The notes under the pieces: model-generated
Seen by the model: the letters and a program-made list of their open reading frames with translations, nothing else
The model's database searches: none
Told to the model about the DNA's origin: nothing
Made by a program: the position numbers and the translations under genes
Part shown: piece after piece, positions 4,296-40,324 of the stretch
Layout of the letters: each line of letters begins with the position of its first letter
Position numbering within the stretch: position 1 is the stretch's first letter
Virus record (IMG/VR): IMGVR_UViG_3300019758_000012
Span: 1 to 41,940 of that record
Direction: 5' to 3' (one strand)
DNA from: a virus
DNA: 41,940 nt

Positions 4296-4325
4296 ATTAT
4301 ACCATTTTGTAACTATATGTAACAA
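4296..4325 (-). promoter_or_regulatory. Promoter of 3770-4273 gene
   Basis: Minus strand: TTGTTA (4320-4325), 18 bp, TATAAT (4296-4301). The -35 overlaps the GTAAC box at 4309-4323. Confidence 0.65.
4309..4323 (+). promoter_or_regulatory. GTAAC box for 4409 promoter
   Basis: GTAACTATATGTAAC, identical to the copy at 37425. Its centre (4316) is 45 bp before the start of the -35 position and 68 bp before the -10 of the 4409 promoter. It also covers the -35 of the divergent minus-strand gene. Confidence 0.75.
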
Positions 4326-5768: not shown

Positions 5769-5797
5769 TTTACACACTTTATTAATTATGGTATAAT
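5769..5797 (+). promoter_or_regulatory. Late promoter before portal gene
   Basis: TTTACA (5769-5774), 17 bp, TATAAT (5792-5797), followed by AAGGTGTGTA before the portal ATG. No GTAAC box lies 45 bp upstream, which separates it from the boxed class. Confidence 0.8.
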
Positions 5798-5820: not shown

Positions 5821-7722
5821 ATGTTTTCCTTCTTTAAAAAACAACAACCACAAGAGCAGCCTAAAGAGTCAGAAAGTTTTTTTAATGCTGACATTAAAGG
5901 CGTAACCCAACAATCAAAAACAGAAATATATCAAAATGCTTACGCTTCAAGTGTACAAGTAAAACCTAGTATAAGTAAAAGTGGCATGGATAGTGCTATA
6001 TACAACAACGCTTTCGTGCAAAGATTTGAATATGGTATTAATCCACTAATCTATAAATGGTATGCAAGTAATGCGTTTATTGGTTTTCAAACAATGGGAA
6101 TTATGGCACAACATGGAATGATAAGTAAAGCTTGCTCAATTCCTGCTAAAGACGCTATAAGGAAAGGTTGGCAAGTCACATCACAAGATGGAGAAGACTT
6201 AGACCCTAAGATTACTGATAAAATAGCTGAACTAGATAAGAAGTTTAGAATTAAAGAAAAATTAGTTAATCAATCTTATTTCACTAAAGTATATGGAATT
6301 AGAATAGCTGTATTTGATATTGAGCATGAGAACCCAGAAGAGTTCTATAAAAACCCTTTTAACATTGACGGTGTGAAGAAAAACAGCTACAAAGGGATTA
6401 AACAAATTGATCCATATTGGATTACTCCCGATTTAACAGGTGCTAACTTATCAGACCCAACTAGCTTAGACTTTTATGAGCCTACTTATTGGATTAGTAA
6501 TGGTAGAAAGTATCATAAATCACATTTAATCATCACAAGAGGGGAGGAGGTAGCCGACATACTTAAACCTTCTTATCAATACGCAGGATTATCTCTTACA
6601 CAAAAAGTATATCAAAGACTTTACGCAGCAGAAAGAATAGCGGACGAAGTTCCAAACCTAGCATTAAGCAAAAGATTAAATATCTTTAAAATGTCAGGCA
6701 TGAGTAAGATTATGTCAAATTTTACTAAGTTTAAAGAGAGAATGAATGATTGGTTAGCATACAGAGATAACTACGGTATCAAATTTGCAGATAAAGAAGA
6801 TGAAATATCACAGATAGACACATCATTAGCAGACTTAGACGTAAACATTATGACTCAATTTCAGTTATTCTGTGCCTTAGTTAATATACCATCTTATAAA
6901 ATGCTTAATGCTCCAATGAAAGGTTTTTCAAGTGGAGAAACAGAAGAAAGCTCATATCACGAAGAATTAGAAAACATTCAAGATTACACACTTACGCCTT
7001 TATTGGATAGACATTATGAAATATTAATTAAATCAGAGGGTATCGAAAAATTTAACCCGACTATCATTTGGAATGAATTAGACAGCGTAACAGAAAGAGA
7101 AAGAGCAGAGATAAACAACTTTAAGGCAACTGAATTAGCAACATTATCAAATGCAGGGCTAATTTCACAAGAAGACGCGAGCAAAACTTTAATTCAAGAC
7201 CCTACAAGTAGCTTTTATAATATGGAAATGTCAGAGCCTGAGGAATACGACTTAAGCGAATATGATAATACACAAGACGGAATGGACTACATAGAAAAAG
7301 AAAATGACTTATATTATGTGTATAGTGAAAATGGAGAAAAACTAAGCAAAGGCTATAAAAGTAAAATCGAAGCTAAGAAAAGATTAAGAGAGATTGAATA
7401 TTTTGCTAATGATATTTTAGAAGAGATAACAGAAGAGACTCAAGATGCTAAATATCAAGGGAAAGAAGTAGAACTTAATAAACCATTTAGAACACCTAAC
7501 GAGAGTAAAAAGTTTGGTGTATATGTTCAAAACGATAAAGGAAATGTTATCCTTGTGAGATTTGGAGATAGCAATATGGAAATTAAAAGAGACGACAAAG
7601 AGTCAAGAGAAAACTTTAGAGCTAGACACAACTGCGAAGAAAAAACGGATAAGACAAAAGCTGGTTATTGGAGTTGTAAGTTTTGGAGTTCAAAATCTGT
7701 AAGCGAATTATTAAAGGATTAG
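5821..7722 (+). CDS. Portal protein, DUF1073 family, with extra C-terminal module
   Basis: 633 aa. Residues about 50-480 match phage portals of the DUF1073 type (PF06381), which form the ring at the head vertex through which DNA passes. About the last 110 residues are a separate small module (FGVYV.NDKGN, GDSNMEIKRDD, RHNC, YWSCKFW) that I have seen fused to various phage head proteins; its role is unknown to me. Although the family is also named Acb1-like N-terminal, I see no paired H-x-T/S motifs of the anti-CBASS phosphodiesterase, so no such activity is claimed. Own promoter at 5769. Confidence 0.85.
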   Translation: MFSFFKKQQPQEQPKESESFFNADIKGVTQQSKTEIYQNAYASSVQVKPSISKSGMDSAIYNNAFVQRFEYGINPLIYKWYASNAFIGFQTMGIMAQHGMISKACSIPAKDAIRKGWQVTSQDGEDLDPKITDKIAELDKKFRIKEKLVNQSYFTKVYGIRIAVFDIEHENPEEFYKNPFNIDGVKKNSYKGIKQIDPYWITPDLTGANLSDPTSLDFYEPTYWISNGRKYHKSHLIITRGEEVADILKPSYQYAGLSLTQKVYQRLYAAERIADEVPNLALSKRLNIFKMSGMSKIMSNFTKFKERMNDWLAYRDNYGIKFADKEDEISQIDTSLADLDVNIMTQFQLFCALVNIPSYKMLNAPMKGFSSGETEESSYHEELENIQDYTLTPLLDRHYEILIKSEGIEKFNPTIIWNELDSVTERERAEINNFKATELATLSNAGLISQEDASKTLIQDPTSSFYNMEMSEPEEYDLSEYDNTQDGMDYIEKENDLYYVYSENGEKLSKGYKSKIEAKKRLREIEYFANDILEEITEETQDAKYQGKEVELNKPFRTPNESKKFGVYVQNDKGNVILVRFGDSNMEIKRDDKESRENFRARHNCEEKTDKTKAGYWSCKFWSSKSVSELLKD

Positions 7723-7723
7723 C

Positions 7724-7993
7724 ATGAAAATTAAAGAAACGACATTATTTAGTAATGACAAGTATAAAGTTATATTTAGACAAGCAGATGATAAAGAAGC
7801 TTTAGACATAGGATACAAGCCACATACAATTTTATTAATCCAAGAAGGAGAAAATAAAGTTTGGTTTAATATTAAGTATAATGACAATGATTTTACTATT
7901 GAAAAAGCAGATTGGTTAAAATGGTATCTTCCTAAGTATTTAATAGACGAGTTAAAAGATAGTATTGAGATTTATCATGGGGCTTTAGAGTAG
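7724..7993 (+). CDS. Hypothetical protein, 89 aa, downstream of portal
   Basis: Starts right after the portal stop (ATTAGCATG) and ends inside the hairpin at 7986-8009. Soluble, with Trp/Tyr-rich C-terminal half and alternating strands. No family recognised. Its place between portal and gpF-like protein suggests a late gene, although a passenger is also possible. Confidence 0.6.
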   Translation: MKIKETTLFSNDKYKVIFRQADDKEALDIGYKPHTILLIQEGENKVWFNIKYNDNDFTIEKADWLKWYLPKYLIDELKDSIEIYHGALE

Positions 7994-8009
7994 AAATTAA
8001 TCTACTCTA
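7986..8009. terminator. Bidirectional terminator, GAGTAGA type
   Basis: Nine-base-pair stem with GAGTAGA (7988-7994) and TCTACTC (8001-8007), loop AATTAA. One of four near-identical copies at convergent gene ends. Confidence 0.7.
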
Positions 8010-8016
8010 CCATTTC

Positions 8017-8478
8017 CTAACCTTGAAAACTAAATTGTAGATATTTATTATCAGGAAGTGGAATATAAACCTCTCCATAATAATCATCACCACAACATCC
8101 ACAACTCTGATCTATATAAATATGTTTTATAAAACTATAATTTTCAGTTTGCTTATCCCCACGTGGTAAATCAACAATTTCAAAATCATAACCACCTTCA
8201 CAGTCCGTAATGCAATCTTTTATATCTTTAACAAATTCTTCGCATACCATACCCGCTAACTCACTAAAAATTTCTTTTACATTTTTAGATTGTCTTTCCG
8301 CTTCTTCTATATAATAATCATTCATAGCACACATTGCATCATTAAATTGTTTTTGTTCACATAATTTACAAGTTTTAGTTTCATAAAAAGTATTATCTTT
8401 ATCAAAAAGATTTATATGTCTTACTTTTTTGCAACAATCACATTTTTTAAATAATTTAAAATTTGTTTTATTTTCCAT
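8017..8478 (-). CDS. Cys-rich hypothetical protein, 153 aa (inverted cassette)
   Basis: The N-terminus carries a zinc-ribbon pattern (CDCC about residues 13-16 and CKLC about 37-40) spaced as in HNH-associated ribbons. The middle is an acidic helix, and a CGCCGDD motif lies near the C-terminus, so two metal sites are possible. The gene lies between portal and gpF-like gene in the opposite direction, with its own boxed promoter and a TAAGTAAAAAGGA leader. I infer an early accessory gene. Function unknown. Confidence 0.65.
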   Translation of the reverse strand: MENKTNFKLFKKCDCCKKVRHINLFDKDNTFYETKTCKLCEQKQFNDAMCAMNDYYIEEAERQSKNVKEIFSELAGMVCEEFVKDIKDCITDCEGGYDFEIVDLPRGDKQTENYSFIKHIYIDQSCGCCGDDYYGEVYIPLPDNKYLQFSFQG

Positions 8479-8497: not shown

Positions 8498-8526
8498 ATT
8501 ATATCTCAACCCTTAACAACAATCAA
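8498..8526 (-). promoter_or_regulatory. Boxed promoter of 8017-8478 gene
   Basis: Minus strand: TTGATT (8521-8526), 17 bp, TATAAT (8498-8503). Confidence 0.8.
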
Positions 8527-8541
8527 TAAAAATGATATAAT
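8513..8541 (+). promoter_or_regulatory. Late promoter before gpF-like gene
   Basis: TTAACA (8513-8518), 17 bp, TATAAT (8536-8541). It is interleaved with the divergent minus promoter: each -35 lies in the other's spacer. Confidence 0.75.
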
Positions 8542-8563
8542 ATAAAAATAAAATTAACTAACT

Positions 8564-8578
8564 GCTACAAAAGGTAAC
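8564..8578 (-). promoter_or_regulatory. GTAAC box of cassette 8017
   Basis: Plus strand GCTACAAAAGGTAAC; centre 8571 is 45 bp from the outer edge of the minus -35 (8526). It begins 28 bp after the start of the forward -10 and contains the AAGG ribosome-binding site of the 8581 gene. Confidence 0.75.
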
Positions 8579-8580
8579 TA

Positions 8581-9393
8581 ATGGCTAAATTTAAACCAAC
8601 AATGATAGAGGGTAAGCCTCTTAAGCCTAATATAAGAATAGAACAATCATATAAAAAAAAGATTGAATCCCTTACAAATGCTATGACTAAAGAAGTTGAA
8701 AGAGAACTTAAAAAGTTATTTAAAAAAGAAAGCCCTGCATTTTTTGCAGAGGACGCCAGTATCACATCACAAAGTAGAATATTGTTATCAAAGTTGTTTA
8801 AAAAGTATTCTAGGATATTTGATATAGAAGGGAAGAAGATAACCAACAAAATGGTTAGTCAAGCCAATAGACACAGCAAAGCAAGTGTTAAAGCTAGTTT
8901 AGAGTCTATGAAGCAAGGATTAACAATCAATGTCAAAGACTTATCAGCAGAAACAAAAGAAATGATTAAAGCTAGTGCTAATCAATCAGCTAGTTATATT
9001 AAGTCGATACAATCTCAATATTTAGATAAAGTAGAGGGCTATGTGTATAGAAGTATTACGGACGGAAACGGACTTCAAGATTTAGTACCTAATTTGCAGA
9101 AGTTATCAGGGCAAACGTTAAGGCGTAGTAGAATGATAGCACAAGACCAATATCGAAAAACATCAGCTAGTTTGGATAAGGCTAGAATGAAACAAAATGG
9201 TATTAGTAAGGCTGTGTGGAGACATGCGAGTGGTGGTATGCTTGACCCCAGAAAATCACATCAACAAATGGACGGGAAAGTTTTTAACTTAGATGAGGGA
9301 TTATATGACCCAGAAGTTGGGAGAAAAATACAACCCTCAGAATTGGTGAACTGTAAGTGTTACTATTACCCTATACTAGAGTTTGACGAGTAG
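8581..9393 (+). CDS. Head morphogenesis protein, Mu gpF / SPP1 gp7-like
   Basis: 270 aa, usual length. A long helical N-terminal region is followed by the minor head domain with the conserved end WRH.......R.SH..MDGKVF, a Pro-Ser-Glu turn, and NCKCYYYP with paired Cys. Such proteins occur in few copies in the head and are needed for head assembly or DNA ejection. Position after the portal is as expected. Initiation at 8581 uses the AAGG within the upstream box. Confidence 0.9.
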   Translation: MAKFKPTMIEGKPLKPNIRIEQSYKKKIESLTNAMTKEVERELKKLFKKESPAFFAEDASITSQSRILLSKLFKKYSRIFDIEGKKITNKMVSQANRHSKASVKASLESMKQGLTINVKDLSAETKEMIKASANQSASYIKSIQSQYLDKVEGYVYRSITDGNGLQDLVPNLQKLSGQTLRRSRMIAQDQYRKTSASLDKARMKQNGISKAVWRHASGGMLDPRKSHQQMDGKVFNLDEGLYDPEVGRKIQPSELVNCKCYYYPILEFDE

Positions 9394-9407
9394 AATTTAA
9401 TCTACTC
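9388..9407. terminator. Bidirectional terminator, GAGTAGA type
   Basis: GAGTAGA (9388-9394) pairs with TCTACTC (9401-9407), loop ATTTAA. Stop codons of both convergent genes lie in the stem. Confidence 0.7.
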
Positions 9408-9734
9408 TTTATTTCTCATAATAGACTCATGTAAGACATGAGGTGGCTTTCCATTTTCTTTTAAAGCGTTGTTCCAACCATTACAATATCCATTGTATGT
9501 AATCATATCCAATTCATAATCTGTTTTAAGATTTACTTCTGATAACTTCTTCCAGTTTTTACCATCTAATGATATTTCTAATGTTGATGGGTCGATTGGG
9601 TGGGCTTTGTCATAATTAACAATGCTAGGTATGCCATCATCAATGGTATAATAACATGGGCTAAAGTACCCTTCAAAATACCCATCACTATAAATCATTT
9701 TAGCTCTACAAATAGGTATATTTAAATCAATCAT
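9402..9734 (-). CDS. Hypothetical protein, 110 aa (inverted cassette)
   Basis: Soluble, aromatic-rich (many Tyr, Trp), with strands in the first half and an ISLDGKNWKKLSEV segment, then NGYCNGWNNAL. No family recognised. Transcribed against the head genes from its own boxed promoter with an AAATAAAAAAAGGA leader. Confidence 0.65.
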   Translation of the reverse strand: MIDLNIPICRAKMIYSDGYFEGYFSPCYYTIDDGIPSIVNYDKAHPIDPSTLEISLDGKNWKKLSEVNLKTDYELDMITYNGYCNGWNNALKENGKPPHVLHESIMRNKE

Positions 9735-9819: not shown

Positions 9820-9834
9820 GTTACAAGTAGTTAC
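9820..9834 (-). promoter_or_regulatory. GTAAC box of cassette 9402
   Basis: Plus strand GTTACAAGTAGTTAC (minus GTAACTACTTGTAAC); centre 9827 is 45 bp from the outer edge of the minus -35 at 9782. Confidence 0.75.
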
Positions 9835-9965: not shown

Positions 9966-9995
9966 TTTACTTTTAGTAACACTTTTAGCTATAAT
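9966..9995 (+). promoter_or_regulatory. Late promoter before protease/scaffold gene
   Basis: TTTACT (9966-9971), 18 bp, TATAAT (9990-9995). Start codon at 10026 after ACAAAGGTTTTTA. Confidence 0.65.
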
Positions 9996-16436: not shown

Positions 16437-16475
16437 TCAAAAAAGGGGCATACTTATTTAGTATGTCCTTTTTTA
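16437..16475. terminator. Bidirectional terminator after sheath gene
   Basis: An A run, then a GGGGCATACT / AGTATGTCC stem with loop TATTT, then a T run. Looks functional on both strands. Confidence 0.8.
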
Positions 16476-17107
16476 TTGTCTAGTAAATATTTTTCTCTGG
16501 CAATATGAGCTTCCTTTGGGCAATCAAATAGCCCTAGACTAATTCTTTTATTATTTCGCTGCACTCTTGCTCGGAATTTATCCCCTGCTTTTGTCACTCC
16601 TTTATAGTTAGTAGTATTATTCTTATATATTCTTTTATTTGAAGCATTTATAAATGAAGTGGTCCATCTACAATTAGAAGGCTCGTAGTTTCCGTCATTA
16701 TTTATTCTGTCTATTTCCAATCTTTCTCTATATCCATTAGACATAGCCCAATTATAAAATGCCATAAAGTCACTTTCCCAATCATCACAGATTGTTATCC
16801 CTCTTGCACCGTAATTTATATATGATTTATCATTTGGGTTTAGACATCGTTGTTTTATTGAGCACCAAACTCCATATATTTTAGTTTTAGACAGATTATG
16901 CTTTGAGCATCCGCAACTAGTTTTTTCTTTATTTTTTACGGTCCATATTTTAGATTCAAATATTTTCCCACAAAAACATTTGAATAGTGCAAATCTTTCT
17001 TTATATTTTGAATCTGTATTTTTGAATTTCATACCTAAATCTTTAATTATATCAAAGTCGTAATCATCTTGATTTAGTGGTTTTAGTTTTCTTTTAGTAG
17101 TTTCCAT
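16454..17107 (-). CDS. HNH homing endonuclease with AP2 DNA-binding domain
   Basis: 217 aa from the ATG at 17107, chosen because AAGGAT lies just upstream; a longer form from a GTG at 17170 would read through a hairpin. Order: Cys pairs (CFC, CGC) of a zinc site at about residues 40-70, an HNH core with YGARGITIC..W, EIDRINNDGNYEPSNCRW and N..NKR, then an AP2-like domain (NYKGVTKAGDKFRARV...ISLGLF). Free-standing homing endonucleases of this type cut phage genomes lacking them and spread by repair. It is inserted in reverse between sheath and tube genes and lacks the GTAAC box, so it differs from the accessory cassettes. Confidence 0.85.
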   Translation of the reverse strand: METTKRKLKPLNQDDYDFDIIKDLGMKFKNTDSKYKERFALFKCFCGKIFESKIWTVKNKEKTSCGCSKHNLSKTKIYGVWCSIKQRCLNPNDKSYINYGARGITICDDWESDFMAFYNWAMSNGYRERLEIDRINNDGNYEPSNCRWTTSFINASNKRIYKNNTTNYKGVTKAGDKFRARVQRNNKRISLGLFDCPKEAHIAREKYLLDNKKGHTK

Positions 17108-17130
17108 ATAGTTATCCTTGTGTTCATTTT

Positions 17131-17170
17131 GTGTTCTTATGGAATGGGGGTTAATTACTCCCCCGAACAC
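17131..17170 (-). promoter_or_regulatory. 5'-terminal stem-loop of the homing endonuclease mRNA
   Basis: GTGTTC (17165-17170, minus) pairs with GAACAC (17131-17136) and inside it GGGGG pairs with CCCCC (17160-17164 with 17146-17150). With the -10 at 17177-17182 the transcript would begin with this stem. Confidence 0.55.
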
Positions 17171-17692: not shown

Positions 17693-17722
17693 AATAGGGG
17701 AGTTTCTACTTCTCTATTTTTA
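17693..17722 (+). terminator. Terminator after tail tube gene
   Basis: AATAGGGGAG pairs with CTTCTCTATT (some G-U pairs), then TTTTT. The hairpin also overlaps the convergent YopX gene end. Confidence 0.65.
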
Positions 17723-18125
17723 ACAGCTCTGGGTTTTCGTAAATGTTTCCTATTACTTCCAAACTATTTGGTATCCATAGCATTTGCCTATCATTAGGAA
17801 TGGCATCATTTTTTATATGAAAATAACCACTATCAAACACAACCTCCGATTTTAATTCTTGAACATTTTTTCCAAATCTAGTGTCTAATTCAATAAAATA
17901 GCCGTTTTCTCTTACATCTCCAAAGTATTTAACAATATCCCCTTCATAAATTTCAACACGATTTTTATCCTTAAGACCTGTGTATTGTCTCCTAGCAACA
18001 ACAGTATATAGACCTAAATTCAAAGGCATTACATTTTCTTCAATTCCTAGTATGTCAGTAGCTTGTCTATATATTCTGCCGTCACTTATCATCTTTATGA
18101 TGTATTCAAACTTGATTTCTCTCAC
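17706..18125 (-). CDS. YopX family protein (inverted cassette)
   Basis: 139 aa from the second GTG (18125), which aligns with the ATG of the paralogue at 31282 (both leaders read AAAGGATAAGTG-RTGAGAGAAAT). The YopX signature RQYTGLKDKNRVEIYEGDIV is at about residues 48-67, and the family-typical end LEVIGNIYENPELL is present. The role of YopX proteins in phages is unknown. It sits reversed between tube and chaperone genes with a boxed promoter, consistent with an early accessory gene. Confidence 0.85.
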   Translation of the reverse strand: MREIKFEYIIKMISDGRIYRQATDILGIEENVMPLNLGLYTVVARRQYTGLKDKNRVEIYEGDIVKYFGDVRENGYFIELDTRFGKNVQELKSEVVFDSGYFHIKNDAIPNDRQMLWIPNSLEVIGNIYENPELLKIEK

Positions 18126-18147
18126 CACTTATCCTTTTTTTTATTTA

Positions 18148-18192: not shown

Positions 18193-18221
18193 TTTACAAA
18201 ATTTTAATAATATGCTACAAT
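18193..18221 (+). promoter_or_regulatory. Late promoter of tail chaperone gene
   Basis: TTTACA (18193-18198), 17 bp, TACAAT (18216-18221). Its -10 lies inside the degenerate box. Confidence 0.65.
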
Positions 18222-18228
18222 ACTACAC
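18214..18228 (-). promoter_or_regulatory. Half-degenerate GTAAC box
   Basis: Plus strand GCTACAATACTACAC; the first half-site matches GCTAC of other boxes, the second is lost. Centre 18221 is 45 bp from the minus -35 edge (18176). Confidence 0.5.
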
Positions 18229-19308: not shown

Positions 19309-19497
19309 TTAATTAAATATTGCACCGATTAGCAATATTACCAAGTTAATACATAAAATCTTAATAATACTTAAATTATATTTATTAGATTGCTGTATGC
19401 TTATTTTATCGCCAAGAAATAAACAAGCAATTACGCCTATGCCTAAAATAGAATTAAAAAAAACAATTAACACTATCATCTCTAATAAGTCATTCAC
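19309..19497 (-). CDS. Two-TM membrane protein, 62 aa (inverted cassette)
   Basis: Two hydrophobic segments (about residues 4-28 and 42-61) separated by a polar loop with Lys and Gln. First gene of the three-gene minus cassette, directly behind a boxed promoter and leader TAAATAAAAAAAGGGA. Candidate membrane effector such as superinfection exclusion, but this is inference from topology and context only. Confidence 0.65.
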   Translation of the reverse strand: MNDLLEMIVLIVFFNSILGIGVIACLFLGDKISIQQSNKYNLSIIKILCINLVILLIGAIFN

Positions 19498-19519: not shown

Positions 19520-19548
19520 ACTATAACACACAACTTTTATAAAATCAA
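19520..19548 (-). promoter_or_regulatory. Boxed promoter of 19497-18805 cassette
   Basis: Minus strand: TTGATT (19543-19548), 17 bp, TATAGT (19520-19525). Confidence 0.8.
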
Positions 19549-19563
19549 TATTTTTGCTATAAT
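19535..19563 (+). promoter_or_regulatory. Late promoter before tape measure gene
   Basis: TTTTAT, 17 bp, TATAAT (19558-19563) preceded by TTTTTGC as in epsilonproteobacterial promoters. Interleaved with the divergent promoter. Confidence 0.6.
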
Positions 19564-19585
19564 ATGAAAATAAATTAACCAAGTA

Positions 19586-19600
19586 GTAACTAAAGGTAAC
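19586..19600 (-). promoter_or_regulatory. GTAAC box of cassette 18805-19497
   Basis: GTAACTAAAGGTAAC; centre 19593 is 45 bp from the minus -35 edge (19548). Starts 28 bp after the forward -10 and contains the AAAGG ribosome-binding site of the tape measure gene. Confidence 0.8.
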
Positions 19601-19603
19601 ACA

Positions 19604-21211
19604 ATGATAGCAGAAGTATTTCAATTTGTCTTTGAGGGAGAAACAGAAAGTTTAGTCAAAGGCGAAAAAGAAGCCGAAAAACAAAACGAAAAACTCCAAA
19701 AAGGCTTAAAGAAAACCGACCAAATGGCTAACGACTTAGGAAGTGGCTTTTCTGATTTTATCGCAACTGCTGGAGGTGCTTTAGTAAGTATCTTGTCTCT
19801 TAGTGCATTAACGCAAGGTATCGCAGAAACTTCTGAATATGTAGATAACTTAGGCAAAACTGCTAGAATGTATGGAGAAAATGCGACACAACTTGCAGCC
19901 TATCAAGAACAAGTAGTAAAAGCAGGTGGAGACATTGGAAGCTTTCAAGGAGTAATTAAAAAACTCAATGGAGACTTTAACGAATTTGTAACTACTGGTA
20001 CAACTGGAATTTTACCTTTTATGCAACGTCTAGGAATTGATATGGTAGACGCACAAGGAAAAGCTAGAAAAGTAACCGATATATTTCCAGAACTTGCAAG
20101 ACAATTTGAGACTATGTCAAAGGCAGAGAGTGCAGGTATCGGGGAAAAGCTAGGGCTAGACGAAGGTACTATCACATTACTACAACAAGGAGAAGAAGGA
20201 CTTAATAAGTTAATCGAAAAACAAAAAAGCCTATTTTCTATTACAGATGAACAAGTAAAAGTATTTGAAGATTTTAACGATAGTGTATCTGACACTAAAA
20301 CAGCGTTTAGAGGAATGTTTGTACAACTAGGTAGTGATATACTTCCTATACTCCAATACTTTATGGAAAAATTACAAGGTGGAATAAGTTTTTTAACTAC
20401 ACACAAAGAGCTAGTAACTGGAATGTTTATAGCTTTAGGCACATCAATAACAGCTTATGCATTACCTGCGATTATTAAATTTGGAATTGCTACTGTTACA
20501 GCATTCGCACCATTTTATCTAATAGGTGGAATTATTGCAGGTATAGCAGTAGCAGTTGGATTACTATATGAGGATATAATGATATTCTTAGAGGGTGGAA
20601 ATAGTGGCTTTGAGAAACTTTTAAAATGGCTTAGTTTTACAGATAAGGAAGTGCAGCAAGTAAGAGAAACATTTAGTAAGCTAGGCGAAGTAATTAGTGA
20701 TGTCTTTAATTTTGCTATTGACTTACTAGGTGGATTCTTTAATTTAATAGGCACTATAGGAAAAGGTATTTTTAAAGCTTTTGAGCCTTTACTTTGGGTA
20801 CTAGGAAAAGGTATAGTATTAGCTGTTGAAGGAGCAATTAAAGCAGTTAGTGGACTAGTAGATATTGCAAAAGGCATTGGTAAGTTTTTCGGCTTTGGTG
20901 GAGACGAAGAGAAAACAATAAATTTAAATGAAAATAAAAATATAACTACATCAAACTTAAATAGTGGAAGTCTAGAAGCAGAAACTAACGCACTAAAGGC
21001 AATGGCTTCAAGCCCTCTAAATAATATGACACCTAATATGATAACTAATCAAGGCTCTACTAGAAGTACTAACAATAGCGTTAAAGTAGACAAAATAGAA
21101 GTAGTAACACAAGCAACGGACGCAGATGGAATAGCCCTAGCAGTTGATAACTCACTTGCTAAACAAATGAAAAAAACTACTGCAACTTTTGAAGATGGAA
21201 TACAAGGATAG
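19604..21211 (+). CDS. Tape measure protein
   Basis: 535 aa. Helical N-terminal region rich in Lys, Glu and Gln, a central hydrophobic block at about residues 275-330 (transmembrane-like), then Gly-rich amphipathic repeats (IGTIGKGIFKAF, GKGIVLAVEGAIKAV) and a Ser/Asn-rich end. It sets tail length and is ejected through the tube. By the usual rule of about 1.5 angstroms per residue the tail would be about 80 nm, short for a myovirus. Start at 19604 uses the AAAGG in the upstream box. Confidence 0.85.
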   Translation: MIAEVFQFVFEGETESLVKGEKEAEKQNEKLQKGLKKTDQMANDLGSGFSDFIATAGGALVSILSLSALTQGIAETSEYVDNLGKTARMYGENATQLAAYQEQVVKAGGDIGSFQGVIKKLNGDFNEFVTTGTTGILPFMQRLGIDMVDAQGKARKVTDIFPELARQFETMSKAESAGIGEKLGLDEGTITLLQQGEEGLNKLIEKQKSLFSITDEQVKVFEDFNDSVSDTKTAFRGMFVQLGSDILPILQYFMEKLQGGISFLTTHKELVTGMFIALGTSITAYALPAIIKFGIATVTAFAPFYLIGGIIAGIAVAVGLLYEDIMIFLEGGNSGFEKLLKWLSFTDKEVQQVRETFSKLGEVISDVFNFAIDLLGGFFNLIGTIGKGIFKAFEPLLWVLGKGIVLAVEGAIKAVSGLVDIAKGIGKFFGFGGDEEKTINLNENKNITTSNLNSGSLEAETNALKAMASSPLNNMTPNMITNQGSTRSTNNSVKVDKIEVVTQATDADGIALAVDNSLAKQMKKTTATFEDGIQG

Positions 21212-22011: not shown

Positions 22012-22026
22012 AAATTAATCTACTCT
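22005..22026. terminator. Bidirectional terminator, GAGTAGA type
   Basis: GAGTAGA (22006-22012) pairs with TCTACTC (22019-22025), loop AATTAA. Lies at convergent gene ends. Confidence 0.7.
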
Positions 22027-22400
22027 TAGTTAAATAGCCAATAAATACCCACACCGATACCACATATACAAATAGTTAAAAAGGGTAATCCAAAAAAGCC
22101 TATAGTGCCAAATAAAGTATAATCAATAAAATCACTTAATGGTTTTTTATATGCTTTATACAAACCAATTATTAAGCCAATTAAAGCTATTACAAACAAC
22201 AATTTAAAAAGCATTATATCAAAGTCACTATATTTCGGATATAAAGTGTTTATGCAACTAGCATATTCTTGTTTTTGTTCTGTTGTTGCTTTTGTATTAT
22301 TAAAATTATTAACTAATGTCTGGCATTCTTGATTTTTAATTCTTGCTTGATTACTTGCTGTTATTGCTAAACTTGCTGATGCTATTGCTGCTGCTCCCAT
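22026..22400 (-). CDS. Membrane protein, 124 aa (inverted cassette)
   Basis: ATG at 22400 chosen because AAAAAGGACAAATA lies just upstream; the frame extends further but without a ribosome-binding site. An Ala/Ser-rich hydrophobic N-terminus (possible signal or first TM), a polar segment of about 50 residues with two Cys, then two strong TM segments (about 68-90 and 97-122). The extracytoplasmic part could form a disulphide. Candidate envelope-acting accessory protein, for example superinfection exclusion; inference only. Confidence 0.65.
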   Translation of the reverse strand: MGAAAIASASLAITASNQARIKNQECQTLVNNFNNTKATTEQKQEYASCINTLYPKYSDFDIMLFKLLFVIALIGLIIGLYKAYKKPLSDFIDYTLFGTIGFFGLPFLTICICGIGVGIYWLFN

Positions 22401-22419
22401 TATTTGTCCTTTTTGTTTA

Positions 22420-22448
22420 ATCATAACACACAACTTTTACAAAATCAA
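22420..22448 (-). promoter_or_regulatory. Boxed promoter of 22026-22400 gene
   Basis: Minus strand: TTGATT (22443-22448), 17 bp, TATGAT (22420-22425). Confidence 0.8.
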
Positions 22449-22463
22449 TAAAAATGATATAAT
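22435..22463 (+). promoter_or_regulatory. Late promoter before baseplate hub gene
   Basis: TTTTAC, 17 bp (or TTTACA, 16 bp), TATAAT (22458-22463). Interleaved with the divergent promoter. Confidence 0.65.
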
Positions 22464-22485
22464 ATCATTAACAAATTTTAAATAT

Positions 22486-22500
22486 GTTTCAAAGAGTAAC
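22486..22500 (-). promoter_or_regulatory. GTAAC box of cassette 22026
   Basis: GTTTCAAAGAGTAAC; centre 22493 is 45 bp from the minus -35 edge (22448) and starts 28 bp after the forward -10. Confidence 0.75.
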
Positions 22501-22503
22501 AAT

Positions 22504-23343
22504 ATGATTGATAAAAGACTTTTAAAAGTTGAGATTGAAGTAGGCAACACACTTAGAACTTATACCGATTTAGACATATCTGCAAGTGGTAGCAAAGTAT
22601 CTAATGAGATACCAAACGAATTTACAATACAAATAAGCAATTTATCTAAAAGCGTAAGAGATAAAATACTAACAGAAACAAATATTTTAGATAGAAATTT
22701 AAATAATAAAAAAGTAGCAGTATATGCAGGGCGTGAAAGCACGGGATATTCTTTAGTTTACAAAGGCGACATAAGACAAGCAACAATCACACAACCACCT
22801 GACATTAAACTTACATTGATTACATACACAGGAGATACTGCTAAATTTGAAACAGTTTCAAGAAGTGGTGGAGAATTAATTAAGTTATCTACACTAAGTA
22901 AACAAGTAGCAAATAGCTTAGGACTACAATTATTATTTCAAGCAACGGACAAGCAAATTGGTAGCTACAATTATACTGGAAGCAAAACCAAAGAGGTTGA
23001 AAATTTAAATAAAGTTGGTGGAGTAAATGCTTATATTGATGATGATACTTTAGTAGTTAGAAATAGAAACACACCTTTAATAGGTAGCACAATTACAGTT
23101 AATAAGAACAATGGACGAATAGGAATACCAACTGTAACAGAGCGTGGAGTTTCTTTTAAAATACTGTATGATAGTAGAATTAAGATAGGTAGTCAAGTAA
23201 ACTTAACAAGTGAATTAAATGTTATTGCTACGGGGCAATGGGTAGTGTATAAATTAAGTTATGATCTACAAAATAGAAACACTAATTTTTATATCACAGT
23301 TGAAGCAACTAATTTAAAACTAAAGGGGGTGAGTAGAAATTAA
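22504..23343 (+). CDS. Baseplate hub protein
   Basis: 279 aa. N-terminal beta-barrel region with repeated strands, a KV.VYAG.E......VYKGDI segment, and a C-terminal barrel ending in TGQWVVYKLSYDLQNRNTNFYITVEAT, as in T4 gp27/Mu gp44-type hubs in compact myoviruses. Lies between the plug and gp138-like spike genes. The product connects the tube end to the spike. Ends in a GAGTAGA hairpin. Confidence 0.75.
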   Translation: MIDKRLLKVEIEVGNTLRTYTDLDISASGSKVSNEIPNEFTIQISNLSKSVRDKILTETNILDRNLNNKKVAVYAGRESTGYSLVYKGDIRQATITQPPDIKLTLITYTGDTAKFETVSRSGGELIKLSTLSKQVANSLGLQLLFQATDKQIGSYNYTGSKTKEVENLNKVGGVNAYIDDDTLVVRNRNTPLIGSTITVNKNNGRIGIPTVTERGVSFKILYDSRIKIGSQVNLTSELNVIATGQWVVYKLSYDLQNRNTNFYITVEATNLKLKGVSRN

Positions 23344-23352: not shown

Positions 23353-23607
23353 TTACTTTAGATGTATTATCCCGTGTTGCTTTTCATATAATTCTACATA
23401 CTCTTTTTTCGCCATATTTACATCTAAATATGTTCCATAGTTTTTATCATTATAGTCCATTATTTTAAATTTTCCACTTTTCATTTTGCATAGCCTTAAA
23501 TTAAATTTTTGTTTAACAATTTTATATTTTTTATCAATTATTGAATTTGCTGCTTTTTCATAGTCTCCACCCATGCCTCTTAAAACTTCATTTAGATAAT
23601 CTCTCAT
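23353..23607 (-). CDS. Hypothetical protein, 84 aa (inverted cassette)
   Basis: Lys/Tyr-rich soluble protein with a helical N-terminus and the segment LCKMKSGKFKIMDYNDKNYGTYLD, likely a small beta hairpin unit. No family recognised. It is transcribed against the baseplate genes from a boxed promoter with leader AAAATAAAAAAGGA. Confidence 0.6.
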   Translation of the reverse strand: MRDYLNEVLRGMGGDYEKAANSIIDKKYKIVKQKFNLRLCKMKSGKFKIMDYNDKNYGTYLDVNMAKKEYVELYEKQHGIIHLK

Positions 23608-23626: not shown

Positions 23627-23655
23627 ACTATACAATACAACTTTAATAAAATCAA
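23627..23655 (-). promoter_or_regulatory. Boxed promoter of 23353-23607 gene
   Basis: Minus strand: TTGATT (23650-23655), 17 bp, TATAGT (23627-23632). Confidence 0.8.
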
Positions 23656-23670
23656 TAAAAATGATATAAT
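23642..23670 (+). promoter_or_regulatory. Late promoter before spike gene
   Basis: TTTAAT, 17 bp, TATAAT (23665-23670). Interleaved with the divergent promoter. Confidence 0.65.
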
Positions 23671-23692
23671 ATGTTCAATAAATTTTAAATAT

Positions 23693-23707
23693 GCTACAAA
23701 AGGTAAC
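23693..23707 (-). promoter_or_regulatory. GTAAC box of cassette 23353
   Basis: GCTACAAAAGGTAAC, identical to the box at 8564; centre 23700 is 45 bp from the minus -35 edge (23655). Overlaps the AAAGG ribosome-binding site of the spike gene. Confidence 0.8.
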
Positions 23708-23710
23708 TAA

Positions 23711-24370
23711 ATGAGTGATTTTACAAGCACAGAAGAAAGCAACGAAGATAGTCTTCCTGGAATTATCAAAACAGCACTTGTTAAATTTCAACAAAACTTA
23801 CAGATTAAATTACCTTGTGTTGTCACCAAAGTAGATAGAAATAAAAACCGTGTAAATGTTGTTCCTCTTATTAGGATAATAAAAACAGACGGTACAACAA
23901 TAAAAAGAGCAGAGGTTCCTAGCATACCTATCAAAAATTTATCTACAAGAAATTACATTATTAACCTACCAATAGAAGTTGGTGACTATGGTTGGATAGA
24001 AACAAGCGATAGAGATATTTCTTTATTTTTGCAAACTTATCAAGAGAGCAAACCAAACACTTTAAGAAAAAACGACTTTGCAGACGCTACCTTTTTTCCT
24101 GATACAATTAATCATAATAATTGGGATATTGCATCAGAGGACGCTAATAATTTAGTTATACAATATAAAGGCAACTCCACTAAAATAAGCATAGGCGAAA
24201 ACAAAATCATACTACAAGCTGAAACGATTGAGCAAAGAGCAACTAATCACATATTTACTAATGGAACAATTAAACATGATGGAGCAAGTATAGACAAAAC
24301 TCATGTACATTTACAAAATGATGGTAACGACGCAGGTGGTGGAGTTAATACCACAGCACCAACAAATTAA
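23711..24370 (+). CDS. Baseplate spike, Gp138-like N-terminal domain
   Basis: 219 aa. N-terminal OB-like domain with LPCVVTKVDRNKNRVNVVPLI and PIEVGDYGWIETSDRDI, then a short repeat region of beta turns and a C-terminal HVHLQNDGNDAGGGV end with His residues that may bind metal at the spike tip. This is the membrane-piercing spike of small myoviruses. Translated from AAAGGTAACTAA within the box. Confidence 0.85.
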   Translation: MSDFTSTEESNEDSLPGIIKTALVKFQQNLQIKLPCVVTKVDRNKNRVNVVPLIRIIKTDGTTIKRAEVPSIPIKNLSTRNYIINLPIEVGDYGWIETSDRDISLFLQTYQESKPNTLRKNDFADATFFPDTINHNNWDIASEDANNLVIQYKGNSTKISIGENKIILQAETIEQRATNHIFTNGTIKHDGASIDKTHVHLQNDGNDAGGGVNTTAPTN

Positions 24371-26591: not shown

Positions 26592-27473
26592 ATGGCAGGT
26601 TATTTTGAAAAACCTTTTGCAGAAACTGGGCTAAAGACTGCAATACCAGTTGATACAACAGTAGACGGAAGCGTATCTTATGAGCAAGGGTATGGAACAG
26701 ATTACGAAATAGACCCCGTAGCAGATCCAGTAAATGCTAAATATCCGGGGCTTAGAGATTTTAATCAACTTTTCTTTAAAATTTCAAGCAATATAAAAGA
26801 ATGGCAAGAGCAAACATTTCCAGCATGGATATCAGACAAGGGAGACGGTAGCCCTTTTTCTTATTCAAAAGACGCTATTGTAACTTATACAGATGGTAGA
26901 GCGTATGTTTCTTTAGTTGATTTAAACACAGGAGAGCCTACGGTAGATACTTCAAACTGGAAATTATTTGAAGATTTTGGAAGTATAAATATTAATAGTT
27001 TAGACCCAAAAACAACGCCAGTTGATGCTGACGAATTAGTTTTATCTGATAGCGAAGATAGCAATCTTTTAAAGAAATTAACTTTTGCTAATTTAAAGGC
27101 AACACTAGATAGCACATGGGTTGCAAACGATGAAAGAGCAAAAACAGCACTAAATGCAAGTGGTTCAGCCCCTATATATGCTTGTAGGGCTTGGGTGAAC
27201 TTTAACGGTACTGGAATAGTTGCTATTAGGGAAAGTGGGAATGTTAGTAGTATTACAGATAACGGTACCGGAACGTATGCAATAAATTTAATTGAAAGCA
27301 TGGAAGATACTAATTATACAATTACAGGATCTTCTGATATATCTGCTACTACTCAAAGTCTGTTTTCTCCAGATGTTTCAAGTAACAATACTGTTTCCAC
27401 TTGTAACATTGTAACAGGTTCAGCGGGTGGGCTAGTAGACGCTGAATATGTATGTGTCAATATAATTAGATAA
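26592..27473 (+). CDS. Tail fibre / receptor-binding protein
   Basis: 293 aa. The N-terminal about 100 residues (baseplate-attachment) contain PFAETG, YPGLRDFNQLFFKI and WISDKGDGSPFSYSKDAIV. A middle helical neck follows, and the C-terminal about 105 residues form a beta-rich head beginning APIYACRAWVNFNGTG with AIRESGNVSSITDNGTG, a module widely shared between tail fibres. It is the likely host-range determinant. AAGGAGTAATAT gives a strong ribosome-binding site. Confidence 0.8.
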   Translation: MAGYFEKPFAETGLKTAIPVDTTVDGSVSYEQGYGTDYEIDPVADPVNAKYPGLRDFNQLFFKISSNIKEWQEQTFPAWISDKGDGSPFSYSKDAIVTYTDGRAYVSLVDLNTGEPTVDTSNWKLFEDFGSININSLDPKTTPVDADELVLSDSEDSNLLKKLTFANLKATLDSTWVANDERAKTALNASGSAPIYACRAWVNFNGTGIVAIRESGNVSSITDNGTGTYAINLIESMEDTNYTITGSSDISATTQSLFSPDVSSNNTVSTCNIVTGSAGGLVDAEYVCVNIIR

Positions 27474-28104: not shown

Positions 28105-28458
28105 GTGGCTAATGAAGAAGAAATAATAAAACTGCTTAAAGGAATAAGGGAAGATACGAAGATAATCCCTATCCTTGAAAATGAAGTAAAAAGACTTAAA
28201 AAACTTGAAGAAGATTTTGAGTCTAAAACTATTCATACAGTAGAAAACAATAACTCATTAGCCGAATACTTTAAAAAGCTAAGCAAAGAAGTAACAATAA
28301 CTTATCTAACAAGTGATGATGCTAGACAATCTCTGATAACTACCATTAAAGAGATATTTGTCAGAGAACTAAATCTTAGGCTAGTAAAAATATTAGCATG
28401 GCAGGCAAGTATATTTACAGCTTTATTTATTGCATACGCTAAATTATGGATAGAGTGA
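28105..28458 (+). CDS. Coiled-coil protein with C-terminal TM anchor, 117 aa
   Basis: GTG start following AAGGTAAGTATA. The first 85 residues are charged helices with heptad-like Leu/Ile/Glu/Lys spacing; residues about 95-115 are a hydrophobic segment, so the protein should be tail-anchored with a cytoplasmic coiled coil. The TGA overlaps the ATG of the response regulator gene (TGATG), indicating coupled synthesis in matched amounts. This suggests that they act together. Function unknown. Confidence 0.65.
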   Translation: MANEEEIIKLLKGIREDTKIIPILENEVKRLKKLEEDFESKTIHTVENNNSLAEYFKKLSKEVTITYLTSDDARQSLITTIKEIFVRELNLRLVKILAWQASIFTALFIAYAKLWIE

Positions 28459-28931
28459 TGAAAGATTTAAATATACTAATTGTTGAAGATGAAGCTATAA
28501 TAAATCTATATTTATCAAAAACTTTAAAGTTGTTTTACACAAATGTCTATATTTCAACAAATGGATATGAAGCTAGAGATATTATTGAAAACAATACTAT
28601 CGATGTAGTAATCACAGATATCAATATGCCTAAAATAGATGGCTTTGGTACGGGTGCAGATTTAATAGAATATATTATATCTGTTAAGCACATTAAAGTT
28701 ATACCTATTGTCATAGTGAGTGCATATAATAATATATGTTGCAAATATAAAGAAGTGGACTGCGTTGAAGTTATAAATAAGCCAATAAATAGTATATACA
28801 GAGTAATTGAAGCTATTGAAAAAGTTTATAATGATAAGAAAAAAAACTTATGTGTAGATGAAGCTTTTTGCAAACTGAAAGAAGTTAATAAAAAAATAAA
28901 TGATATACTAGATAAAATTAACGAGGCTTAA
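28458..28931 (+). CDS. CheY-like response regulator receiver protein
   Basis: 157 aa from ATG 28458. Full receiver domain: acidic pair E10-D11-E12, phosphoacceptor Asp54 in ITDINMP, Ser88 in IVIVSAYN, and Lys108 in INKPI, so phosphorylation and switching residues are all present. There is no output domain; residues about 124-157 form a short Lys/Glu-rich helix, possibly a coiled coil. The gene lies between tail and lysis genes and is coupled to the membrane coiled-coil gene upstream. Could modulate host chemotaxis or motility, or titrate a host kinase; both are inference. A standalone receiver is very unusual in a phage. Confidence 0.9.
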   Translation: MKDLNILIVEDEAIINLYLSKTLKLFYTNVYISTNGYEARDIIENNTIDVVITDINMPKIDGFGTGADLIEYIISVKHIKVIPIVIVSAYNNICCKYKEVDCVEVINKPINSIYRVIEAIEKVYNDKKKNLCVDEAFCKLKEVNKKINDILDKINEA

Positions 28932-30193: not shown

Positions 30194-30594
30194 TGCAATC
30201 AAGAAAAATAGACTCTATTATTATTCATTGTTCGGACTCTCCACAAGGTAGAGGAGATGATGTCAATACAATTAGACAATGGCACTTAGAAAGAGGTTGG
30301 AATGATATAGGCTATCACTATGTTATCCTAGAAGATGGCACAATTCAAGTAGGCAGAGATTTAAATAAAAGTGGCGCCCATGCAAAAGGTCATAATTCAA
30401 ATTCAATAGGTATATGTCTTATAGGCAAAGATACATTTACTGAAAAACAATTTGATTCACTATCATATTTAACTAAAGGCTTGAAGTATCAATTTAGTAT
30501 ATATAGTAAAAACATAGTAGGTCACTATAAAGTATCTTCTAAGACTTGTCCTAATTTTGATGTAGACAAATACAAAGAAGAATACTCAATTTAA
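30193..30594 (+). CDS. Endolysin, N-acetylmuramoyl-L-alanine amidase (Amidase_2)
   Basis: 133 aa, single catalytic domain. Zinc ligands His12, His111 and Cys119, with Lys117 two residues before Cys119 as in T7 lysozyme, and motifs IIIHCSDSP, RGWNDIGYHYVI, GAHAKGHN and GHYKVSSKTCPNFD. It cuts the amide bond between muramic acid and the stem peptide. No signal peptide, so it depends on the holin. A convergent terminator follows. Confidence 0.95.
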   Translation: MQSRKIDSIIIHCSDSPQGRGDDVNTIRQWHLERGWNDIGYHYVILEDGTIQVGRDLNKSGAHAKGHNSNSIGICLIGKDTFTEKQFDSLSYLTKGLKYQFSIYSKNIVGHYKVSSKTCPNFDVDKYKEEYSI

Positions 30595-30671
30595 TAAGGG
30601 TAGTCTAGTACTACCCCATAAGCTAAAAGCCCTAAAAATAAAAGTGCTGCAATTATCATCTTTTCAAACAT
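30591..30671 (-). CDS. 26-residue membrane peptide (inverted cassette)
   Basis: ATG at 30671 follows TAAATAAAAAAGGATTAAT. One hydrophobic helix with a short N-terminal polar part. It carries the full boxed promoter of the inverted cassettes, which is the main reason to believe in so small a gene. Its stop interlocks with the amidase stop (TTAATAA). Function unknown. Confidence 0.6.
   Translation of the reverse strand: MFEKMIIAALLFLGLLAYGVVLDYPY
30598..30616. terminator. Convergent terminator after endolysin
   Basis: GGGTAGT (30598-30604) pairs with ACTACCC (30610-30616), loop CTAGT. Lies inside the end of the 26-aa gene. Confidence 0.65.
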
Positions 30672-30755: not shown

Positions 30756-30770
30756 GTTTCAAAAAGTATC
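30756..30770. promoter_or_regulatory. GTAAC-type box shared by two divergent promoters
   Basis: GTTTCAAAAAGTATC. Centre 30763 is 45 bp before the forward -35 (30808) and 44 bp from the minus -35 edge (30719), so one site lies symmetrically between both promoters. Confidence 0.65.
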
Positions 30771-30855: not shown

Positions 30856-31113
30856 ATGAACTATAAGAAAACAATAGCAATAAGTGATTATTTTGAAAAG
30901 GCTTATCAAGATAAAGACTTAATAGCAATCGCAAACAATATTATTCTAGCTAAATCAATTATGCGTGATGATTGGTATTTAATTAACTATATATCACATG
31001 AGAAGCACAAATTGAGCAAAGATGAAGCTAACATGATATTCAGAGACTATTTAAATCAAATAGTTTATTGCGTGGATAATCCACAATTAAATTTAGGATT
31101 AAAGGATAAGTGA
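30856..31113 (+). CDS. Hypothetical early protein, 85 aa
   Basis: First gene of the early region. Predicted wholly helical, charged, with a central HEKHKLSKDEANMIFRDYLNQI stretch. No family recognised. As first gene behind one of the strongest boxed promoters it may be an early regulator or host takeover factor; this is inference. TGA overlaps the ATG of the next gene. Confidence 0.65.
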   Translation: MNYKKTIAISDYFEKAYQDKDLIAIANNIILAKSIMRDDWYLINYISHEKHKLSKDEANMIFRDYLNQIVYCVDNPQLNLGLKDK

Positions 31114-31271: not shown

Positions 31272-31281
31272 AGGATAAGTG

Positions 31282-31632
31282 ATGAGAGAAATTAAGTTTA
31301 AATATTTATTTGAGGATATAAAAGAAGATGGAAGAAATATTATTAAGCAAATATATACTCTAAAACAAATAGAACAAAATGAGATTATTTATGATAAAGA
31401 TATTCTTATAGCAAAAACACAATACACAGGTTTAAAAGACAAAAACAATGTTGAGATTTATGAGGGTGATATTGTTACTCACGAAGATTTTAAAGAACTT
31501 AGTGAAGTAACTTTTGAAAGAGGTTGTTTTAGAATACATAATTTTACTATTGCTAATTTTGAAGCAATACACCATATGGGAAAAATTGAAGTTATTGGAA
31601 ACATTCACGAAAACCAAGAATTGCTAGAATAA
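31282..31632 (+). CDS. YopX family protein (early paralogue)
   Basis: 116 aa from ATG 31282; a GTG three bases earlier is less likely. Contains the YopX signature TQYTGLKDKNNVEIYEGDIV and the end KIEVIGNIHENQELL. The ribosome-binding site and first codons are nearly base-for-base those of the inverted YopX gene at 17706-18125, so the two derive from a duplication or shared ancestor. Role unknown. Confidence 0.85.
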   Translation: MREIKFKYLFEDIKEDGRNIIKQIYTLKQIEQNEIIYDKDILIAKTQYTGLKDKNNVEIYEGDIVTHEDFKELSEVTFERGCFRIHNFTIANFEAIHHMGKIEVIGNIHENQELLE

Positions 31633-33255: not shown

Positions 33256-33622
33256 TCACACAATACAAAGACATCACATAGAGACTCTTATACTAATAAG
33301 CTTTTTAAATCAAGATAAGAGCAATGAAATAGACCAAATGGAGTTTAGAGAGTATAGACTACCTTTTGAACTATTTAAGGCGAATAAGACATATAAGCTT
33401 GTCGCTAAAGCTATAAGAAACTTACAAGATGAAAACAAACCGATTGATGAGGTAACAGTAATTAGTTACATTACGAAACATATTGAAATAAATCAGCATG
33501 AATACTTAGAGCTTTTATCTCATGTTGGTTGTACTTTTGATACTATGATTTTATATCTTGATTATTTAAGAGAGATAGACGAAGAAGAAAAGAAAAGAGA
33601 ATTGTTAAGGAGTGTGATTTGA
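33245..33622 (+). CDS. DnaB-type helicase N-terminal domain, separate gene
   Basis: 125 aa. Resembles the helical N-terminal domain of DnaB: HIETLILISFLNQDKS, LPFELFKANKTYKLVAKAIRNLQDENKPIDEVTVISYI and EYLELLSHVG. The protein ends after this domain, and the ATPase part is encoded by another gene 1 kb further on (34682-35587), with a methyltransferase between. Coupled to the initiator by an 11-base overlap. Confidence 0.7.
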   Translation: MNTNHTIQRHHIETLILISFLNQDKSNEIDQMEFREYRLPFELFKANKTYKLVAKAIRNLQDENKPIDEVTVISYITKHIEINQHEYLELLSHVGCTFDTMILYLDYLREIDEEEKKRELLRSVI

Positions 33623-34680
33623 ATTTTACCTACAAATGGAATTTAAAAGATTTAGAAAAAGTTAAGCCAAATGGCTATAAAGTGTTTAGTTGTTTTGCAG
33701 GCGGTGGAGGTAGTAGCCAAGGCTACAAAATGGCTGGATATGAAGTTATAGGGTGTAATGAAATTGACCCACGACAAATGGAAATATACAAGCATAATTT
33801 AAAACCTAAATACAGTTATTTAGAAGACATTAGAACATTTAGGCTTAGAGAAGATTTACCTAAAGAATTGTTTGAATTAGATATTTTAGATGCTTCATTT
33901 CCTTGTAGCTTATTTTCAACTGCTAATTTAAAAGCAGATGATAAAAAAGGCAAAGAAGTTAAATTTAGAGAGGGTCAATCAAAACAGACACTTGATGACT
34001 TAGCTTTTGAAACAATAAAGTTAGTTGATAAAATCAAACCTAAAATATGTGTTTTTGAAAATGTAAAGGGATTACTACAAGAAAAAAATAAATGGTATGT
34101 TGAGCAAATATATTCTCAATTTGATAAAATAGGATACAGAATTTGCCATCATTTAATTAATTGTGCAGACTTAGGAGTTCCGCAAAAAAGGCAAAGAGTT
34201 TTTTTCTTTGCTGTTAGAAATGACATTAATGTACCTACTGCGGATATCTTCGGGTGTGAGCCTTATTTAAATTTGGATATTAAAGAGAAACATATTACTT
34301 TAGGCATGATAGATAAAGACAATAAAGGAAAGAAACCGACTCAATTTACATTGGATATGCTAAAGCATTATAAAAAAGGAGATAGCAGCCTTGGAGATAT
34401 TAGACAAAGATTAGAAAATAAATCAACAGGCTTTCAAACTTATATAGTGACTAATAGTGATATATGTAACACATTAAGGGCAGGAAGTAATGATTTTATA
34501 CAAATAGATGAAAACAATAAAAACTTATCAGACTATGAGCTTTTACAGATTGGTAGTTGGTCACAAGATTATGACTTCAAATCTCAAAAAGTTATTTATG
34601 TTTTAGGAATGAGTGTTCCACCTTTAGCAATGTATAGAATATCTAAAGAAATAGAAAAACAATGGTTAAATAGGGCTTAA
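33619..34680 (+). CDS. DNA cytosine-5 methyltransferase
   Basis: 353 aa, TTG start with AAGGAG six bases upstream, overlapping the previous TGA. Motif I FAGGGGSSQG (26-35, AdoMet binding), motif IV with catalytic Cys96 (SFPCS), motif VI ENV (147-149), motif VIII QKRQRVFFF, and motif X VLGMSVPPLAMYRIS are all present. No restriction partner nearby; probably protects phage DNA from host restriction or acts on phage gene control. Target sequence cannot be predicted here. It splits the helicase pair. Confidence 0.95.
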   Translation: MNFTYKWNLKDLEKVKPNGYKVFSCFAGGGGSSQGYKMAGYEVIGCNEIDPRQMEIYKHNLKPKYSYLEDIRTFRLREDLPKELFELDILDASFPCSLFSTANLKADDKKGKEVKFREGQSKQTLDDLAFETIKLVDKIKPKICVFENVKGLLQEKNKWYVEQIYSQFDKIGYRICHHLINCADLGVPQKRQRVFFFAVRNDINVPTADIFGCEPYLNLDIKEKHITLGMIDKDNKGKKPTQFTLDMLKHYKKGDSSLGDIRQRLENKSTGFQTYIVTNSDICNTLRAGSNDFIQIDENNKNLSDYELLQIGSWSQDYDFKSQKVIYVLGMSVPPLAMYRISKEIEKQWLNRA

Positions 34681-35589: not shown

Positions 35590-35604
35590 GTTACCTAAAG
35601 TAAC
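35590..35604 (+). promoter_or_regulatory. GTAAC box for 35741 operon
   Basis: GTTACCTAAAGTAAC, a perfect inverted repeat in both half-sites. Centre 35597 is 45 bp before the -35 (35642). Confidence 0.8.
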
Positions 35605-35671: not shown

Positions 35672-35740
35672 TCTTTTGTCGAGGTAGTAGACGACTTGAA
35701 AACTAGAGGGAATAGTAACCCTTCTTTTAAAAGGAAAACA

Positions 35741-37424: not shown

Positions 37425-37439
37425 GTAACTATATGTAAC
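37425..37439 (+). promoter_or_regulatory. GTAAC box for 37530 operon
   Basis: GTAACTATATGTAAC, identical to the box at 4309. Centre 37432 is 45 bp before the -35 at 37477. Confidence 0.85.
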
Positions 37440-40309: not shown

Positions 40310-40324
40310 GTAACTTAAAGTAAC
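40310..40324 (+). promoter_or_regulatory. GTAAC box for 40412 operon
   Basis: GTAACTTAAAGTAAC; centre 40317 is 45 bp before the -35 at 40362. Confidence 0.85.

Follow-up and report, generated by a model that had tools for sequence, protein, structure and literature searches.

The late promoters of phages P2 and P4 that are served by Ogr and Delta are sigma-70 promoters with a palindromic TGT...ACA activator site upstream, the Ogr site taking the form TGT-N12-ACA near -55. In phage phi29, the early-late switch involves proteins p4 and p6 and the promoters A2b/A2c and A3; a dimeric regulator on inverted repeats activates one promoter and represses overlapping neighbours of the other temporal class, such that p4 activates the late promoter and represses the early promoters (PMC3100819). 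Sites of the OmpR/RstA type have the consensus GTTACAnnnnGTTACA (PMC7315122). In the phage DNA analysed here, divergent promoters are interleaved beside a palindromic box, and this geometry would be compatible with one regulator activating one promoter class and repressing the other, as in phi29.

The window, by which we mean the whole stretch analysed, is the record IMGVR_UViG_3300019758_000012 (41,940 bp, 30.6% G+C), in which PHROGs matches identify head morphogenesis, head maturation protease, tape measure, baseplate hub, amidase, replication and NinG genes. Because its SSB is closest to that of Malaciobacter (76% over 110 aa), followed by those of other Campylobacterota, the host is probably Arcobacteraceae-like, as judged from this one gene; no Arcobacter phage with promoters of the present kind was found in the literature.

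An original prediction had placed interleaved divergent promoters, with a box over the late leader, at 8498-8581, 19520-19604, 22420-22504 and 23627-23711. All four sites are present, each -35 lies within the spacer of the opposite promoter in every one of them, and the boxes at 8564, 19586, 22486 and 23693 start exactly 28 bp past the first base of the forward -10. At the first switch, the late restart promoter (8513..8541, plus strand, TTAACA-17-TATAAT, extended -10) precedes a MuF-like head morphogenesis gene (8581..9393, plus strand; PHROG 324, 2.8e-67), and the early-type promoter (8498..8526, minus strand, TTGATT-17-TATAAT) precedes an antisense cargo gene of 153 aa with no assigned function (8017..8478). 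The box (8564..8578, minus-strand reading GTTACCTTTTGTAGC) lies on the late leader, 75 bp from the minus -10, and the hairpin GAGTAGAAATTAATCTACTC (7988..8007, repeat family D4) marks the convergent end of the cassette. The second box (19586..19600, GTAACTAAAGGTAAC) is on the tape measure leader (gene 19604), opposite the minus promoter 19520..19548 (TTGATT-17-TATAGT), which serves cargo 19309-19497 together with the antisense genes that follow; the third (22486..22500, GTTTCAAAGAGTAAC) is on the baseplate hub leader (gene 22504), opposite 22420..22448 (minus, TTGATT-17-TATGAT) of cargo 22026-22433; and the fourth (23693..23707, GCTACAAAAGGTAAC) is on the leader of the late gene 23711, opposite 23627..23655 (minus, TTGATT-17-TATAGT) of cargo 23353-23607. 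TTGATT and the 17-bp spacer are thus common to the four minus promoters, and the forward -10 elements of the switches are of the extended type, TGnTATAAT.

Used as a search pattern, the full interleaved geometry gave three exact site matches as against none in 100 shuffles, with switch 22486 falling outside because its box is degenerate. Matches to the bare sigma-70 consensus were at chance level in one of two scanned stretches and moderately above chance in the other, and the promoter calls rest for that reason on alignment, fixed spacing and conservation. Judged from the geometry, simultaneous occupation of both promoters by RNA polymerase is implausible, as predicted, and the label "early" for the minus promoter is reasonable in that the replication and recombination operons have promoters of its class. 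The prediction that the box also encodes the AAGG ribosome-binding site was borne out at three switches, the fourth (22486) having AAAGAG instead; in two relatives the ribosome-binding site is directly 3' of the box rather than inside it.

The box is a 17-base element with the palindromic consensus TGTWACNNNNNGTWACA (24 pooled sites), in which G1 and C15 are invariant. When all boxes are aligned, the box start is 52 bp from the early -35 and 75 bp from the early -10, the exceptions to the latter being 74 bp at 30671 (minus) and 76 bp at 35696 (plus). If the first base of the -10 is set as -12, the box centre falls near -80 of the early transcript, and at the switches the box covers approximately +17 to +31 of the late transcript. 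Phasing of 74-76 bp was found at 12 of 12 early-type promoters in the window, fed by 11 boxes; eight of these promoters lie beyond the four switches, and they include those of the replication operon and other early operons without a nearby late promoter. A single bidirectional box (30756..30770) feeds both the minus promoter at 30671 and the replication operon at 30856 (plus), at 74 and 75 bp respectively; the gene behind the former (30594-30671, minus strand) is a hydrophobic ORF of 26 aa with its own strong boxed early promoter. Early operons 35696+, 37530+ (recombination, SSB) and 40412+ have boxes at 35590..35604 (GTTACCTAAAGTAAC, 76 bp), 37425..37439 (GTAACTATATGTAAC, 75 bp) and 40310..40324 (GTAACTTAAAGTAAC, 75 bp), the promoter of the first being below the scan threshold. 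Cargo 9402-9734 has its box at 9820..9834 (minus-strand reading GTAACTACTTGTAAC, 75 bp), and cargo 17706-18128 has a degenerate one at 18214..18228 (75 bp to the minus -10), which shares bases with the -10 of the late promoter in front of 18247 (18193-18221, plus strand, TTTACA-17-TACAAT). The early-type promoter of 4409+ has its box at 4309..4323, where it overlaps the -35 region of a minus promoter at 4301. At 9966..9980 a box-like sequence (TTTACTTTTAGTAAC) covers the -35 of the late promoter in front of 10026; it may be a chance match, its score of 12.1 being close to those of several intragenic chance matches.

In a scan for early-type promoters, all strong matches had a box at 74-75 bp, with the exceptions of 4301 (minus), with the box over its -35, and 5792 (plus; portal gene), which has none; the weak boxless matches at 6338, 27738 and 36007 look intragenic or lie near gene ends. 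The sequence between box and -35 is poorly conserved (24-70% for most pairs, 89% for one pair, shuffled mean 40%), and since its length is fixed as its sequence diverges, the phasing is not just copy history. The four switches are therefore part of a genome-wide early-promoter architecture, and by its phasing the box belongs first to the minus (early) promoter. That a putative protein on the box favours the minus gene receives strong indirect support from the 52/75-bp phasing in places without a late neighbour. The idea of a master early/late switch was not supported: a box is missing from the late-type promoters near 5792 (portal gene) and 17215 (tail gene), and any box repression of late genes is consequently at most local. 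The predicted control concerns restart promoters and is not a genome-wide late switch.

The same architecture is found in relatives, which were obtained by DNA-pattern scans of IMG/VR that returned related phages only: G014 (L075, L080-81), G018 (L077), G007 (L068-69, L082), G015 (L076, L083) and G017 (L085-87). By their late genes G014, G007, G018 and G017 form one group, and G015 and the window have terminase, portal and head genes in common at low identity. With matrices trained on the window alone, the best box lay at 74-76 bp for 17 of 18 early-type promoters on five related contigs, several of which are orthologues so that the independent cases number roughly a dozen; the controls gave 3.9% at random positions and 0 of 6 at early-type promoters of other AT-rich phages. 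At 6830 in G018 one box sits amid two early promoters, at 52/75 bp to each, and the exact 28-bp distance from late -10 to box recurs in G014, G015, G017 and G018, giving nine sites across phages. The promoter 20-mer alone as query found one true relative (G007) among other matches, and queries with tail sheath, terminase and methyltransferase found distant phages in which boxed promoters were absent. A DNA cytosine methyltransferase, encoded at 33619-34680, has 64-82% identity to copies in other viral contigs that otherwise have almost nothing in common with this phage.

The reading that we favour, with moderate confidence, is that the box is an activator site for the early and cargo promoters and that its occupancy also hinders the late restart promoter. 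A dimeric regulator would bind the box and, positioned near -80 and always on the same face of the helix, touch RNA polymerase and activate the early-class promoters; a dimeric activator is suggested because the fixed phasing, the palindromy and the bidirectional use fit one. Boxed promoters would in this manner drive the early operons as well as small accessory genes placed antisense inside the late (virion) operon. Proteins bound just downstream of a start site commonly block transcription, and a regulator on the box, shortly past the late start site and on or beside the late ribosome-binding site, would hinder the late restart. When the regulator is absent, the shared DNA would go to the late promoter. 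As a counterpoint, many early promoters are near the sigma-70 consensus and might do without an activator.

The best-surviving alternative, though we consider it unlikely, is that the box is an upstream activator site of the early promoters only, its overlap with the late leader reflecting compact packing and mere competition for RNA polymerase. The box distance is indeed the same where a late promoter is absent, and some late promoters have no box. It is difficult to reconcile such packing with a late -10 exactly 28 bp from the box at all nine sites, or with boxes that overlap late-type promoters in other registers, over the -10 at 18214 and over the -35 at 4309. Activation combined with a local hindrance of late restart remains our preferred reading.

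Domain searches and BLAST gave no regulator gene in either the window or its relatives, nor one common to them. There is no Trans_reg_C domain in the window, HTH_3 gave weak matches only, within small-terminase genes, and neither phi29 gp4 (PF05464) nor Ogr_Delta (PF04606) had a match in six records, which may be incomplete. Two candidates were dropped: as binder of the box, the receiver-domain protein at 28446-28931, since no output domain was found, and as common regulator, the HTH_39 protein of G007 (27201-27389), which had no match in other records. In the former, whose gene belongs to the late region and lies upstream of the amidase gene, a response-regulator receiver domain (PF00072, 3.5e-15) was the only domain recognised. 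The regulator gene may fall outside the records, or the regulator may be host-encoded rather than phage-encoded. A terminase scan of host chromosomes gave no relative, and plasmid pAMYT of Malaciobacter has no box. Among approximately 85,000 species genomes the exact box and promoter pattern had a lone match, in Acinetobacter, which we judged to be due to chance. Given this single match, the box geometry is not a common host regulon, in a search whose strict pattern would miss weaker host sites.

Less probable still is a repressor operator, which would silence early promoters from -80, through a DNA loop or by retaining RNA polymerase, and late promoters through its direct overlap with them. 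In line with this explanation, early promoters close to consensus look active unaided and the box does overlap late promoters. Nevertheless, a site with its centre at -80 seldom suffices for repression, neither an integrase nor a phage repressor was found, and phasing to within 1 bp is what activator contact would produce.

Comparison between relatives shows the minus genes to be accessory cargo that was inserted as cassettes. One slot is empty in G018 (L077), where two late genes overlap stop-to-start. G014 carries at this junction an insert of ~430 bp, comprising one antisense gene, both promoters and the box; in G017 there are two different antisense genes and a switch that matches, and in G007 a sense gene and no box. 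The last of these (L068, 13278-14073), a sense-oriented insert with its own promoter, implies that a slot can take cassettes of more than one type. A further slot, which follows the portal gene, has antisense cargos in all four phages, with no clear mutual similarity among them, between a conserved hairpin directly after the portal stop and a near-identical switch module of ~80 bp; similarity over full length is 82-90% for the switch and 35-48% for the cargo. From these conserved borders and variable cargo it follows that exchangeable cargo either moves together with the switch or is taken up by it. Four convergent ends of the window are marked by the hairpin GAGTAGAAATTAATCTACTC or a close copy. 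A better description of the unit is that of an antisense cargo cassette, inserted, whose promoter pair restarts the interrupted late operon; it would comprise a terminator facing the upstream late gene, the cargo gene or genes, a boxed early promoter and an interleaved forward restart promoter. An antisense HNH endonuclease gene (16454-17170), between sheath-like and tail-tube-like genes and with divergent promoters but no box, is a second type of antisense insert. YopX-like genes occur twice in the window, in antisense orientation within the late region (17706-18128) and in sense orientation within the early region (31279-31632), and relatives have several more, often behind boxed promoters. 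Unrelated cargo amid conserved borders in the post-portal slot could suggest that the module is mainly a recombination border for cargo exchange, conserved by homologous exchange rather than regulation, but this is highly improbable given that the box spacing is kept at non-cassette early operons despite diverged spacer sequence.

Read as an activator site that also hinders late restart, the box makes of an isolated peculiarity a predicted regulon, whose exact geometry is conserved in two phage groups that are largely unrelated. This reading further suggests how a virion operon can take up accessory genes and remain unbroken, by antisense placement, an early promoter and an interleaved late restart. 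We hold more tentatively that one dedicated regulator of an undescribed kind serves all early promoters together with several exchangeable antisense slots in the late operon, in each of which the terminator is fixed, the cargo can be swapped and an early-on/late-off promoter pair is built in. Should this be true, new cargo would be expressed early, the late operon restarted and temporal control kept. The identity of the regulator, and whether phage or host encodes it, becomes a direct experimental question.

In conclusion, the new part is the combination of boxed early-class promoters, exchangeable antisense cassettes and an interleaved late restart promoter. Relative to phi29, the box geometry predicts the reverse direction, with early transcription favoured and late transcription hindered; moreover, the p4 consensus CTTTTT-15 bp-AAAATG differs from the box consensus, and the many box copies per genome are attached to exchangeable cargo, and no p4 homologue was found in the six records. 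Relative to the Ogr/Delta system, the site is TGT-N11-ACA near -80 of early promoters instead of late ones, and no Ogr_Delta homologue was found in the six records. Some boxes (4309 in minus-strand reading, 9820) match the OmpR/RstA consensus letter for letter, whereas an inverted repeat is the better reading of the pooled consensus; the half-site GTWAC is itself palindromic, which makes direct and inverted readings hard to separate, and the flanking T...A favours the inverted one. In contrast to systems of the OmpR/PhoB type, there is no phage-encoded winged-helix response regulator, as judged from Trans_reg_C in the window. The cassettes resemble phage morons in being accessory genes between late genes that have their own promoter and terminator and vary among relatives: the same place is empty in G018 and filled with different genes in G014 and G017, and, by sequence, a boxed promoter and a convergent hairpin would act as promoter and terminator. 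They differ from morons in that the cargo is antisense, under the phage's own boxed early-class promoter, and in that the insert also brings a promoter that restarts the interrupted late operon.
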